DNA of 28,595 nt from positions 1-28,595 of the IMG/VR virus record IMGVR_UViG_3300025410_000070; one strand, written 5' to 3'. The notes under the pieces were generated by a model. That model saw nothing but the letters and a program-made list of their open reading frames with translations. It did no database searches and was not told the origin of the DNA. The position numbers were made by a program, and so were the translations under genes. This stretch comes from a virus. This document shows positions 7,815 to 11,740 of this stretch, one piece after another (the first letter of the stretch is position 1; every line of letters begins with the position of its first letter).

Positions 7815-7848
7815 GCACTAGGGCATTAACTTGTCCTAGTGCTTTTTT
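7815..7848 (+). terminator. Strong intrinsic terminator
   Basis: GCACTAGG (7815-7822) pairs perfectly with CCTAGTGC (7835-7842) around a 12-base loop and is followed immediately by six T. It ends the plus-strand unit containing the Cys-rich protein, exopeptidase and membrane peptide. Confidence 0.9.
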
Positions 7849-8080
7849 GTCGTCTTTTTTTTAATCGATTGATCGCGATCTTTCGAAACGATGACCCGTG
7901 CCTGGAGCCTGGCCCTGGAGCAGAACCCAAAATCAAAACCAATTCGGTTTTAGAAATGCCATTTGGATTTGGATTTGGATTTGGATTTGGATATTGAAAA
8001 TGAAATTAGATTTGGATTTGGAATTGGATTTGGAGTTGGATTTTAGTTTGGATTTGGATTTAAAATGTTACAAATATAAC
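7849..8080. repeat. Non-coding spacer with CCTGG cluster and ATTTGG hexamer array
   Basis: After the terminator come a T-run, three CCTGG words within 18 bases (7901-7918), and then an ATTTGG array. Five perfect tandem copies fill 7961-7990, and degenerate copies continue to about 8061. The frame through it would read as alternating Ile-Trp then Leu-Asp, typical of translated repeat DNA, and it runs over the next promoter, so I do not call a gene. The array could be an iteron-like origin element, a slippage-prone spacer or a protein-binding array. Confidence 0.75.
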
Positions 8081-8110
8081 TTGACGAACAAACCCACACA
8101 TGACTATAAA
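8081..8110 (+). promoter_or_regulatory. Promoter for the methyltransferase operon
   Basis: TTGACG (8081-8086) and TATAAA (8105-8110) are spaced by 18 bases. They lie just after the hexamer array and about 70 bases before the first gene, which has a strong AAGGAG ribosome site. Confidence 0.65.
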
Positions 8111-8181
8111 ACCCTTATGGATGAAAATACCTATAAATTGGGCCTATTTTTATCCATTAGACAAAAAAAGGAGTAATAACA

Positions 8182-8621: not shown

Positions 8622-8903
8622 ATGACCAAGAAAATGGATTGGATTAAAGAATACCGTGCCGACATTCAGTCATGCTATGGCGATGACCCTGTAGAGGGCT
8701 ATATTTACCATTTTGGCGAACCCGATACAGAATGGTTTGAGAATAACCTTCATATCTATAAGAATACCCACTTCCCGCATGGGGAGTGGTACCTTTGCAT
8801 TGGCAACCAAGAATGGGAGTCAGATGATTTGGAAGAGTTGGAAAGTATTCTTTGGAAAGAAGCCATTAGCTTGGGCCGCACCCAATATGCGGGTGAGCCA
8901 TGA
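8622..8903 (+). CDS. Hypothetical phage protein
   Basis: A 93-residue acidic protein rich in W and E (for example DTEWFENNLHIYKNTHF and GNQEWESDDLEELESILWKE). Two starts are possible: ATG 8607, overlapping the previous gene, or ATG 8622, one base after its stop. Neither has a strong ribosome site; I use 8622. It ends in an ATGA overlap with the methyltransferase gene, so both are probably translated together. The fold could be a small alpha/beta domain. Function unknown. Confidence 0.65.
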   Translation: MTKKMDWIKEYRADIQSCYGDDPVEGYIYHFGEPDTEWFENNLHIYKNTHFPHGEWYLCIGNQEWESDDLEELESILWKEAISLGRTQYAGEP

Positions 8904-9796
8904 AATGGGCTTATTACAATGAAATTGACCCGTTTGCCGCGCAATGGTTGAAAAACCTGATTAAGGGGGGGCTTATTCCGAATGGCGAAGTTGATGAAAG
9001 ATCAATTATCGATGTTAAACCTGATGACGTCAAAGGATTTACCCAAGTCCACTTCTTCGCAGGTATCGGTGGATGGGCATATGCAACCAAACTTGCGCGA
9101 TGGCCCATCGACAAACCAATTTGGACGGGAAGTTGCCCCTGCCAACCATTCAGCGTTGCCGGAAACCAAAAAGGGCAGAAAGACGAAAGACATCTCTGGC
9201 CCACCTTCTTTAGCCTCATTAAAGCCTGTAGGCCCGATGTGGTTATGGGAGAGCAGGTTGCGGCAGCGGTTGGCAAGTCTTGGCTCGACGGAGTGTTCAC
9301 TGACTTGGAAGGCATCAATTACTCCGCAGGGGCGACCGTTGTTCCGGCTTGTGCCGTCAACGCACCGCACCGCAGGGACAGACTTTGGTTTGTGGCGAAG
9401 TCCTCAAGCGTCAGAGGCGACGAGGGGTCCGAAAACGGAGAAGTTTTACAAGCATTGCATCCAAACGGGTCAGTCAATGGTAACACTGACGGATCAGACA
9501 CGACACGCGATGTGGCCTACCCCATCGTCGAGGGACGGCAAGGGTGGCTATCAGGGTGGTCGGATACGGAATGGCAAACTGTCGAACGATACGTTGGACG
9601 TGACGGCCCAACACACTGGTCAAATGCAGGTTGGATTGGAGGGGCAGACGGCAAACAAAGGCGGTTTGAACCCTCAATTCGTCTGTTGGCTTATGGGGTT
9701 TCCGCCAGAGTGGGAAAGCTACGCGCCTACGGCAACGCCATCGTCCCGCAAGTCGCGGCAGAAATAATGAAAGCATATTTGGATTCACACGGCTAA
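8900..9796 (+). CDS. C5-cytosine DNA methyltransferase
   Basis: A 298-residue enzyme that would transfer methyl from S-adenosylmethionine to C5 of cytosine in DNA. Visible motifs are FAGIGG (residues 53-58, cofactor binding), PCQPFS (80-85, catalytic C81), GEQV (117-120, in the place of the usual ENV), HRRDRLWFV (157-165) and GNAIVPQVA near the C-terminus. The N-terminal 50 residues precede motif I, as in many phage relatives. The region between about 166 and 265 would recognise the target; its site cannot be read from sequence. The GEQV variant recurs in phage members. The start overlaps the previous stop (ATGA). A second long frame overlaps it, described separately. No cognate restriction gene is visible. 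Confidence 0.93.
   Translation: MKWAYYNEIDPFAAQWLKNLIKGGLIPNGEVDERSIIDVKPDDVKGFTQVHFFAGIGGWAYATKLARWPIDKPIWTGSCPCQPFSVAGNQKGQKDERHLWPTFFSLIKACRPDVVMGEQVAAAVGKSWLDGVFTDLEGINYSAGATVVPACAVNAPHRRDRLWFVAKSSSVRGDEGSENGEVLQALHPNGSVNGNTDGSDTTRDVAYPIVEGRQGWLSGWSDTEWQTVERYVGRDGPTHWSNAGWIGGADGKQRRFEPSIRLLAYGVSARVGKLRAYGNAIVPQVAAEIMKAYLDSHG
8982..9767 (+). CDS. Long frame nested in the methyltransferase gene, protein-like (WPTP/LTWK type)
   Basis: A 261-codon frame lies almost wholly inside the methyltransferase gene, shifted by one base. Its distal half reads like a real family product. It has SLTWKASITPQGRPL (near residue 107), STHRTAG, GLWRSPQASEATRG, MWPTPSSRDGKGGYQGG (near 177), LNPQFVCWLMGFPPEW (229-244) and ATPSSRKSRQK at the end. 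I recall LTWK, WPTP and LNPxFxxWLMG as recurring segments in phage methyltransferase-associated proteins. The start is uncertain: ATG 8982 has no clear ribosome site, so expression might need frameshifting or internal initiation. It could alternatively be a relic of a fused or tandem second gene. Confidence 0.5.
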   Translation: MAKLMKDQLSMLNLMTSKDLPKSTSSQVSVDGHMQPNLRDGPSTNQFGREVAPANHSALPETKKGRKTKDISGPPSLASLKPVGPMWLWESRLRQRLASLGSTECSLTWKASITPQGRPLFRLVPSTHRTAGTDFGLWRSPQASEATRGPKTEKFYKHCIQTGQSMVTLTDQTRHAMWPTPSSRDGKGGYQGGRIRNGKLSNDTLDVTAQHTGQMQVGLEGQTANKGGLNPQFVCWLMGFPPEWESYAPTATPSSRKSRQK

Positions 9797-10909: not shown

Positions 10910-11207
10910 AGATAGTTTGTATTCACCGGACTTGGCCGTTCGTTGGTTAGGTCCATACCCTTTATCCGACCCCACAGAGGAAGAAATGACAGGTTTCCAA
11001 TCTAAACGACAAAGTACAACATCGCGATATGCTGATGATGAGACGGTAAAAGAACTTATCCGTTTGCGGGTTGAAAATGACAATTTAAGGAAACAATTAG
11101 CTGAAACCAAATTATGCTCATGTAAAAAGCGTGACATGGAATTGGATCAGATGTTTGCTTACTTTGAAGATCCGTTTGGAACAAACAAATTCAATGGTGG
11201 CGAGTAA
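10896..11207 (+). CDS. Hypothetical protein with coiled-coil segment
   Basis: A 103-residue frame. Residues 45-75 (DDETVKELIRLRVENDNLRK onward) form a clear short coiled coil, followed by a CSCKK segment and an acidic C-terminus. ATG 10896 overlaps the preceding gene but lacks a strong ribosome site. ATG 10986, giving 73 residues (MTGFQSKRQ), has an excellent AGAGGA just upstream and may be the true or a second start. The stop overlaps the GcrA-like gene's start (TAATG). No known family. Confidence 0.6.
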   Translation: MGKLKDSLYSPDLAVRWLGPYPLSDPTEEEMTGFQSKRQSTTSRYADDETVKELIRLRVENDNLRKQLAETKLCSCKKRDMELDQMFAYFEDPFGTNKFNGGE

Positions 11208-11740
11208 TGATGCTCATTCCTTGGACTACTAGAGAACGCGATATGATGGTTAAGCTGTGGCAGAGCGGTGAGAGTGCCGCCATGATTGCAGCTAAACTTG
11301 GCAATAACCGAACAAGAAACTCTGTCCTTGGATTTCTTTACCGATTAAGGCGTAGTAACCCAGAAATGGAAATACGCTTTGAAAGCCAACAAAGTCGCCC
11401 ACGACAAAAGAATTCAATACCGGTGGTTAGGCCAAAGAAACCCAAACCAGAGCCGATTGTCCAGGTTAACTTGTTTACCCCTATTGAAGAAGTACCCGCA
11501 CCGGATGGTGGCGTCCCATATTTTGAGACGCGCCTCTTCCAATGCAAATACATTCTCAACACTAGCAAAGACCCACATAATGTTAAATGCTGTGGGGCTT
11601 CTGTTTATCGTTTAACATCATGGTGCAAAGACCATTACTACGAAGTGTTTACAGAACGTACTTCCCACGGAATACAGGCCGCCCATTTATCATCTGGCAA
11701 AACTCAGGTGGCATCAAAATTCCAGTTTCGTCGAATGTAA
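11207..11740 (+). CDS. gcrA: GcrA-family transcription regulator
   Basis: A 177-residue protein. The N-terminal domain PWTTRERDMMVKLWQSGESA then MIAAKLGN.RTRNSVLGFLYRLR matches the GcrA DNA-binding helix-turn-helix. The C-terminal part carries C113, C128, C129, C140 and H143 (CCGAS, then SWCKDHYYEVF), like the Cys/His cluster of GcrA. In Alphaproteobacteria GcrA binds sigma-70 and promoters, with a preference tied to GANTC methylation, and controls cell-cycle genes. The middle linker is Pro/Lys-rich. A phage copy might redirect host RNA polymerase. It begins on ATG 11207 overlapping the previous stop; ATG 11210 is equally possible. Its 3' end overlaps the convergent phosphoesterase gene by 92 bases. 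It is the main host clue. Confidence 0.85.
   Translation: MMLIPWTTRERDMMVKLWQSGESAAMIAAKLGNNRTRNSVLGFLYRLRRSNPEMEIRFESQQSRPRQKNSIPVVRPKKPKPEPIVQVNLFTPIEEVPAPDGGVPYFETRLFQCKYILNTSKDPHNVKCCGASVYRLTSWCKDHYYEVFTERTSHGIQAAHLSSGKTQVASKFQFRRM

Follow-up and report, generated by a model that had tools for sequence, protein, structure and literature searches.

A second protein frame apparently overprinted on a phage C5-cytosine DNA methyltransferase gene

Overprinted genes are a familiar kind of gene in phages, the pair Rz/Rz1 of lambda and the pairs A/B and D/E of phiX174 among them. To our knowledge, few long same-strand overlaps are backed by evolutionary proof except in small viruses. The locus that we describe here shares with the lambda and phiX174 pairs a gene embedded on the same strand and in another frame, with what appears to be its own internal start. 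It differs from them in that the outer gene encodes a DNA methyltransferase, the overlap runs over more than 200 codons, the pair is carried by very divergent tailed phages, and over its distal half the embedded frame, which we call F2, is conserved better than the outer one. The dcm-vsr pair of Escherichia coli is similar in that a C5 methyltransferase gene overlaps another gene; that overlap, however, measures just 20 bp at the gene ends, and Vsr, unlike F2, is a free-standing endonuclease. Finally, the ShiLan domain is an out-of-frame HNH endonuclease inserted in a mycobacteriophage methylase (PMC11855218). The likeness lies in a hidden out-of-frame protein within a phage methylase, and the difference is that ShiLan is an HNH-containing homing insertion, whereas F2 overlaps the core of the enzyme. 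The ShiLan paper was the only relevant result of a literature search for overlapping, nested, or internal genes in phage methyltransferases, and no paper on F2 was found in the open-licence literature that was searched.

The locus lies within a 28.6-kb virus record, the whole of which is referred to below as the window. The outer gene (Table 1) was originally predicted as a complete C5 methyltransferase frame, and the listing of open reading frames (ORFs) agrees exactly, as do the matches to PF00145 (66.7 bits against a cut-off of 22) and phrog_363. Its product carries FAGIGGW as motif I, PCQPFS with Cys81 as motif IV, GEQVA as motif VI, HRRDR as motif VIII, and GNAIVP as motif X; G55, P80, C81, Q82, R159, R161, G278, and N279 are invariant columns of the methyltransferase. 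The 261-codon frame shifted by one base is likewise listed just as predicted, with an ATG and an offset of +1, and the four peptides quoted from it were all located, two of them at the positions in Table 1 and the other two, LTWK and ATPSSRKSRQK, at 9300-9311 and 9732-9764. Upstream of the gene, at about 7930-8050 of the window, a low-complexity repeat is translated as GFGFGFGFG, WIWIWIWIWI, and LDLDLELDLELD in the overlapping ORFs 7839-7997 and 7898-8176. Downstream of it, at 11207-11740 on the + strand, the phage encodes a GcrA-like cell-cycle regulator (PF07750, E 4.5e-10), which suggests an alphaproteobacterial host.

In total, we regard it as very probable that the locus holds two same-strand proteins, the methyltransferase and an overprinted F2 of about 250 residues with its own initiation, and that both are under selection. 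F2 would be translated from the methyltransferase mRNA.

Table 1. Methyltransferase gene and F2 frame, with the parts of F2, in window coordinates
Feature	Position	Strand	Basis or remark
C5-cytosine DNA methyltransferase, 298 aa, ATG start	8900..9796	+	PF00145 E 3e-18; phrog_363 E 2e-79
Purine-rich SD-like stretch aaggggggg	8963..8971	+	Upstream of ATG 8982
F2 frame, 261 codons counted from first ATG	8982..9767	+	+1 to methyltransferase; TAA 9765-9767
F2 from family-conserved internal ATG, 251 aa	9012..9764	+	ATG opposite methyltransferase D38-V39
F2 helix and beta-hairpin module, around ESRLRQRLASLGSTECSLTWKASITPQGRPLFRLV	9237..9359	+	AlphaFold2 pLDDT; invariant W
F2 repeat unit WPTPSSRDGKGG	9513..9548	+	(W/L)PTP-like motif
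F2 C-terminal motif LNPQFVCWLMGFPPEW	9666..9713	+	P, W, L, M, G, P conserved

Distribution, annotation, and possible role of F2

Homologues of F2 occur in independent phages: tblastn returned 274 phage records, 186 of them at a coverage of at least 80%. The HMM search that had been proposed for this frame matches phrog_1008 (E 7.9e-32, residues 16-252 of F2 against positions 11-286 of a 329-position model), and phrog_31772 matches as well (E 3e-19). The homologues come from phages of Escherichia, Klebsiella, Paenibacillus, Rhodobacter, Salmonella, Xanthomonas, Pseudomonas, and Vibrio and from cyanobacterial phages, and the hosts of F2-bearing phages include Gram-negative, Gram-positive, actinobacterial, and cyanobacterial groups. 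The BASEL phages Bas70, Bas72, Bas73, and Bas74, which infect laboratory E. coli, are among the carriers of the pair, and its frames were read in Bas70. Searches of the F2 frame against Pfam and NCBIfam, PF00145 and the dcm models included, gave no match, and a PDB profile search gave nothing at E <1. Within the family, F2 of the first and third subfamilies align with an hhalign probability of 99% (E 3e-19), and second-subfamily F2 frames have a median profile score of 103 bits, where the null reaches 21 at the median and 64 at most; this similarity between subfamilies is partly a passive by-product of methyltransferase conservation.

How has this frame been annotated so far? The two PHROG families collect annotated F2-frame proteins, the overlap itself going unrecorded there, and PHROGs v4 labels both "DNA methyltransferase." Because F2 has no methyltransferase match in Pfam or NCBIfam and lies in another frame, that label of phrog_1008 does not fit it. 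Among individual records, ORF30 of Escherichia phage K1G is the F2 frame, named "putative Mte8-like protein" and placed beside a methylase (in the literature searched, "Mte8" leads only to a single phage genome comparison [PMC5582158]); gp56 of Paenibacillus phage Shelly is the F2 frame under the record name "g55 internal gene"; and in Cylindrospermopsis phage Cr-LKS3, F2 is the sole coding sequence annotated at the locus, labelled "methyltransferase." F2 is also annotated in Mycobacterium phage XFactor (gp67) and Pseudomonas phage phPA-G. The K1G, Shelly, XFactor, and Cr-LKS3 records thus hold the same +1 frame, as isolated annotations without tests of selection, start site, or distribution. 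The segments that the original prediction likened to phage methyltransferase-associated proteins do exist in phages, but they belong to this same overlapping frame, often annotated "DNA methyltransferase." Proteins of the type "SETWPRSGMT...WLMGFPIGW" were considered as stand-alone forms; every one checked, in Paenibacillus, Lacticaseibacillus, Mycobacterium, Salmonella, Microcystis, and Synechococcus phages, is the +1 frame of a methyltransferase.

The association of the two frames is strict. All 182 loci that match the methyltransferase profile also hold an F2 match, and no F2 was found without an overlapping methyltransferase, the 79 loci retrieved through F2 itself included. The F2 profile has no match in the E. 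coli Dcm family (79 loci), and hhalign gives F2 against Dcm a probability of 0.2%. Since the methyltransferase core is common to the wider C5 family, Dcm included, and Dcm lacks F2, we infer that F2 most likely arose by overprinting of an existing methyltransferase. Several loci show unusual arrangements. On the Pseudochrobactrum plasmid p.QF3 (L427, 101553-102200), the pair is absent from the gene table and both frames read through; one contig (L006, 3000-4750) holds two adjacent methyltransferase copies, at about 3.0 to 3.9 kb and 4.0 to 4.7 kb, each with its own F2; and in another (L009, 3104-4594) F2 stays open far past the methyltransferase stop, in a stop-to-stop segment of 503 codons.

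The predicted product is in large part modelled with low confidence (AlphaFold2 mean pLDDT of 58.4 and 52.9 for two F2 models). The only confidently modelled core is the helix and beta-hairpin, with pLDDT block averages of up to 92; the models also show C-terminal helices. With a low-confidence model as the query, Foldseek against viral models returned a few phage proteins, either methyltransferase-labelled or unnamed. The (W/L)PTP-like units number 0 to 6 per F2 in the window's subfamily and 0 to 7 across the three subfamilies, and their number rises with methyltransferase length (r 0.52-0.74). The C-terminal motif has the consensus WLMG(F/W)P; its homology to motif IX of classical C5 methyltransferases (RLTPRECARLMGF) was considered and rejected, the hhalign probability of 0.2-0.3% not being significant.

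What might such a protein do? Because co-occurrence with the methyltransferase is strict, a role with the enzyme is favoured, and our best guess is that F2 would partner the methyltransferase, or modulate it, in the protection of phage DNA. Given that co-occurrence follows in part automatically from the overlap, we hold this guess at somewhat below an even chance and give about the same weight to a real F2 with a task unrelated to methylation, such as that of a DNA-binding protein in anti-restriction or anti-defence. Consistent with independence, F2 is basic in two of the three subfamilies (median pI of 9.9 and 9.6), the number of WPTP repeats is variable, and three contigs (L125, L173, and L175) retain an intact F2 despite a single stop in the methyltransferase. 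Against it, F2 of the third subfamily is near neutral (pI 6.1), and none of the F2 loci, including those fetched by F2 itself, is free of the methyltransferase.

Natural breaks bear on both frames. F2 is broken no more often than the methyltransferase: both frames are intact in 154 family-1 loci, and a stop in F2 beside an intact methyltransferase is rare, with one such locus (L055, one stop). The contigs with single stops are metagenomic or draft sequence, in which stops could be sequencing errors. Six family-1 loci score as broken in both frames (in L070, L073, L080, L083, L085, and L089, both frames shift near the start of the variable region, and neither survives alone). Komagataeibacter phiKX1, considered as a case of a broken methyltransferase, has an intact one.

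Translation start of F2

The original prediction counted the frame from its first ATG, at 8982. That codon stands as a possible lineage-specific start. L005, the closest relative, likewise shows an ATG at this offset (+82), preceded by aaagga. The family-wide start is the ATG at 9012, opposite methyltransferase codons 38 and 39. Among 65 non-redundant relatives, an ATG at those codons (g-ATG-tn) is present in 46 (null, 20 ± 3.5), an SD core at about codons 34 and 35 is present in 38 (null, 12 ± 3.1), and the two are present together in 35, where the null gives 4 ± 1.9 and at most 10. The SD before 9012 is weak in the window itself (gaaagatc), and F2 of the window may therefore start at either 8982 or 9012.

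The third subfamily is arranged differently. In 65 of its 80 loci, the F2 ATG follows the methyltransferase start at a distance of 4 nt, in the form (A/G/T)TGAATGAGYTGGCT and behind one SD, and the methyltransferase start codon varies (ATG in 44, GTG in 22, and TTG in 13). In many contigs of this subfamily, for example L267, the 21 bases immediately following the methyltransferase start (AATGAGYTGGCTCTTTTCGCA) are near-invariant, and the near-invariance extends to the wobble bases of both frames.

The internal SD-ATG and the twin starts look like two answers to one requirement, and on their basis we posit that F2 is initiated independently rather than reached by frameshifting; it is the sequence of the start regions that points to separate initiation. 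In this model, ribosomes would begin F2 of the window's subfamily at the SD-ATG that lies some 110 nt inside the methyltransferase gene, and in the third subfamily a single SD would serve both frames through twin start codons spaced 4 nt apart. The original prediction had offered true dual coding or programmed frameshifting in place of chance. Dual coding is strongly supported by the openness of the frame, the codon positions, the residue conservation, the start signals, the natural breaks (three loci with a stop in the methyltransferase alone against one with a stop in F2 alone), and the profile scores between subfamilies. Neither of the outcomes that the original prediction named as refuting it holds: homologues in independent phages are plentiful, and F2 stops beside an intact enzyme are rare. 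Programmed frameshifting, in which a +1 (or -2) shift within the methyltransferase would yield a fusion with F2 as an alternative C terminus, is in our estimate, which draws on the start signals, very unlikely. The +1 frame is indeed open throughout downstream of about codon 31, and one contig (L168, 2000-3050) carries a natural indel that joins the N-terminal half of the methyltransferase in frame to the F2 C-terminal motif (LNPAHSRWLMGLP). A fusion, however, would need neither the SD-ATG of F2, which is enriched and conserved in position, nor the twin starts of another subfamily.

Open frame, substitution pattern, and residue conservation

Each F2 motif faces a conserved motif of the methyltransferase, and passive conservation therefore had to be excluded. 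The null that we used permutes synonymous codons within each gene, so that the protein and its codon usage are held; it controls for passive similarity and is simpler than a full evolutionary model. From the window and 80 viral contigs fetched by the methyltransferase signature alone, 77 full-length ORFs were analysed. Their +1 frame is on average 90% open, against 46% in the null, and is individually significant (p<0.05) in 67 of 77 ORFs, some loci falling short of significance, while the +2 frame of the same ORFs is 21% open against a null of 23%. The window gene alone gave a +1 open run of at least 268 codons in 7 of 5,000 shuffles, and none of the 5,000 was free of +1 stops over codons 28-290 (mean, 4.7 stops). 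The divergent subfamilies agree: +1 openness is 0.78 against 0.34 in the second (75 loci, 71 individually at p<0.05) and 0.97 against 0.43 in the third (80 loci, 75 individually at p<0.05), with the +2 frame at its null in both. In the E. coli Dcm family, which served as a control (79 loci), +1 openness is 0.21, and so is the null.

The substitution pattern across homologues, which the original prediction had singled out as a check, shows constraint in both frames. In pairs at 90-98% identity, changes fall on methyltransferase codon positions 1, 2, and 3 in shares of 0.45:0.15:0.40, against 0.09:0.05:0.86 in Dcm control pairs. Codons 2-31, upstream of F2, show ordinary coding (0.17:0.14:0.69). 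Codons 40-105 are like methyltransferase-only coding (0.17:0.15:0.69), and support for the N-terminal third of F2 thus comes mainly from openness. The pattern is mixed over codons 106-168 and then turns to 0.62:0.20:0.18 over codons 169-253 and 0.65:0.08:0.26 over codons 254-286. Because position 1 of the methyltransferase is the wobble position of F2, F2 is the better-conserved frame in this distal half, which is the part that had been described as protein-like. We posit that the methyltransferase frame would prevail along the catalytic motifs and that F2 would do so in the variable region and at the C-terminal motif.

Conservation of F2 residues was assessed in 65 methyltransferases at <70% identity. 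Column similarity in the +1 frame is 1.25, against 0.283 ± 0.010 in the null; it is also raised in the +2 frame (0.90), as expected because nucleotide constraint spills over. A tryptophan of the helix and hairpin module, opposite methyltransferase codon 136, is present in 65 of 65 relatives. Prolines are kept against many different methyltransferase dipeptides: opposite codon 268 in 61 of 65 relatives (24 dipeptides), opposite codon 168 in 47 (35 dipeptides), and opposite codon 198, in the WPTPSSRDGKGG unit, 44 times (37 dipeptides). In the LNPQFVCWLMGFPPEW motif, the residues P, W, L, M, G, and P are each found in 92-97% of the 65 relatives, far above the null. The wobble bases of F2 are free (CCN, GGN, and CTN/TTR), which argues for selection at the level of the protein rather than the DNA.

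Could the +1 frame be open and similar solely through the conserved methyltransferase protein and its codon usage? The placement of the F2 motifs opposite conserved methyltransferase motifs is what such a by-product would give, in GC-rich genes chance alone yields longer +1 frames, and, as noted, not every individual locus reaches significance. Nonetheless, permutations that keep both protein and codon usage reproduce neither the openness nor the similarity, and passive conservation as the cause of the +1 similarity was removed on this ground; the +2 frame and the Dcm family both behave like the null; and the distal codon-position shares rank F2 above the methyltransferase. We take these controls to refute chance or passive conservation as the source of the open frame, a reading that we consider extremely improbable, unless a constraint at the DNA level mimics the codon periodicity of F2. 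Least probable of all, to the point of being negligible, is that F2 is a mobile out-of-frame insertion like the HNH endonuclease of the ShiLan domain, which likewise hides an out-of-frame protein in a phage DNA methylase (PMC11855218), given that F2 overlaps the core motifs of the methyltransferase themselves, turns up in every one of the 182 family loci examined, and matches no HNH model in Pfam.

Implications for phage methyltransferases

The overlap lies in a well-studied enzyme, is statistically clear, and extends across diverse host groups. One direct consequence is that some phage database entries now called "DNA methyltransferase" or "hypothetical protein" represent another protein, one that is still uncharacterised. 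To go one step further, we speculate, with rather less than even confidence, that F2 is a widespread family born by overprinting and an obligate companion of the methyltransferase, perhaps as a subunit adjusting the enzyme's activity or choice of target. If this is true, pipelines that keep one frame per locus, or that label both frames "methyltransferase," would explain why F2 has been overlooked, and the sequence of the methyltransferase variable region would be largely dictated by F2. That region cannot be read as a target-recognition domain unless F2 is allowed for. The pair also offers a natural system for two proteins that share one sequence, and it is carried by laboratory phages of E. 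coli.
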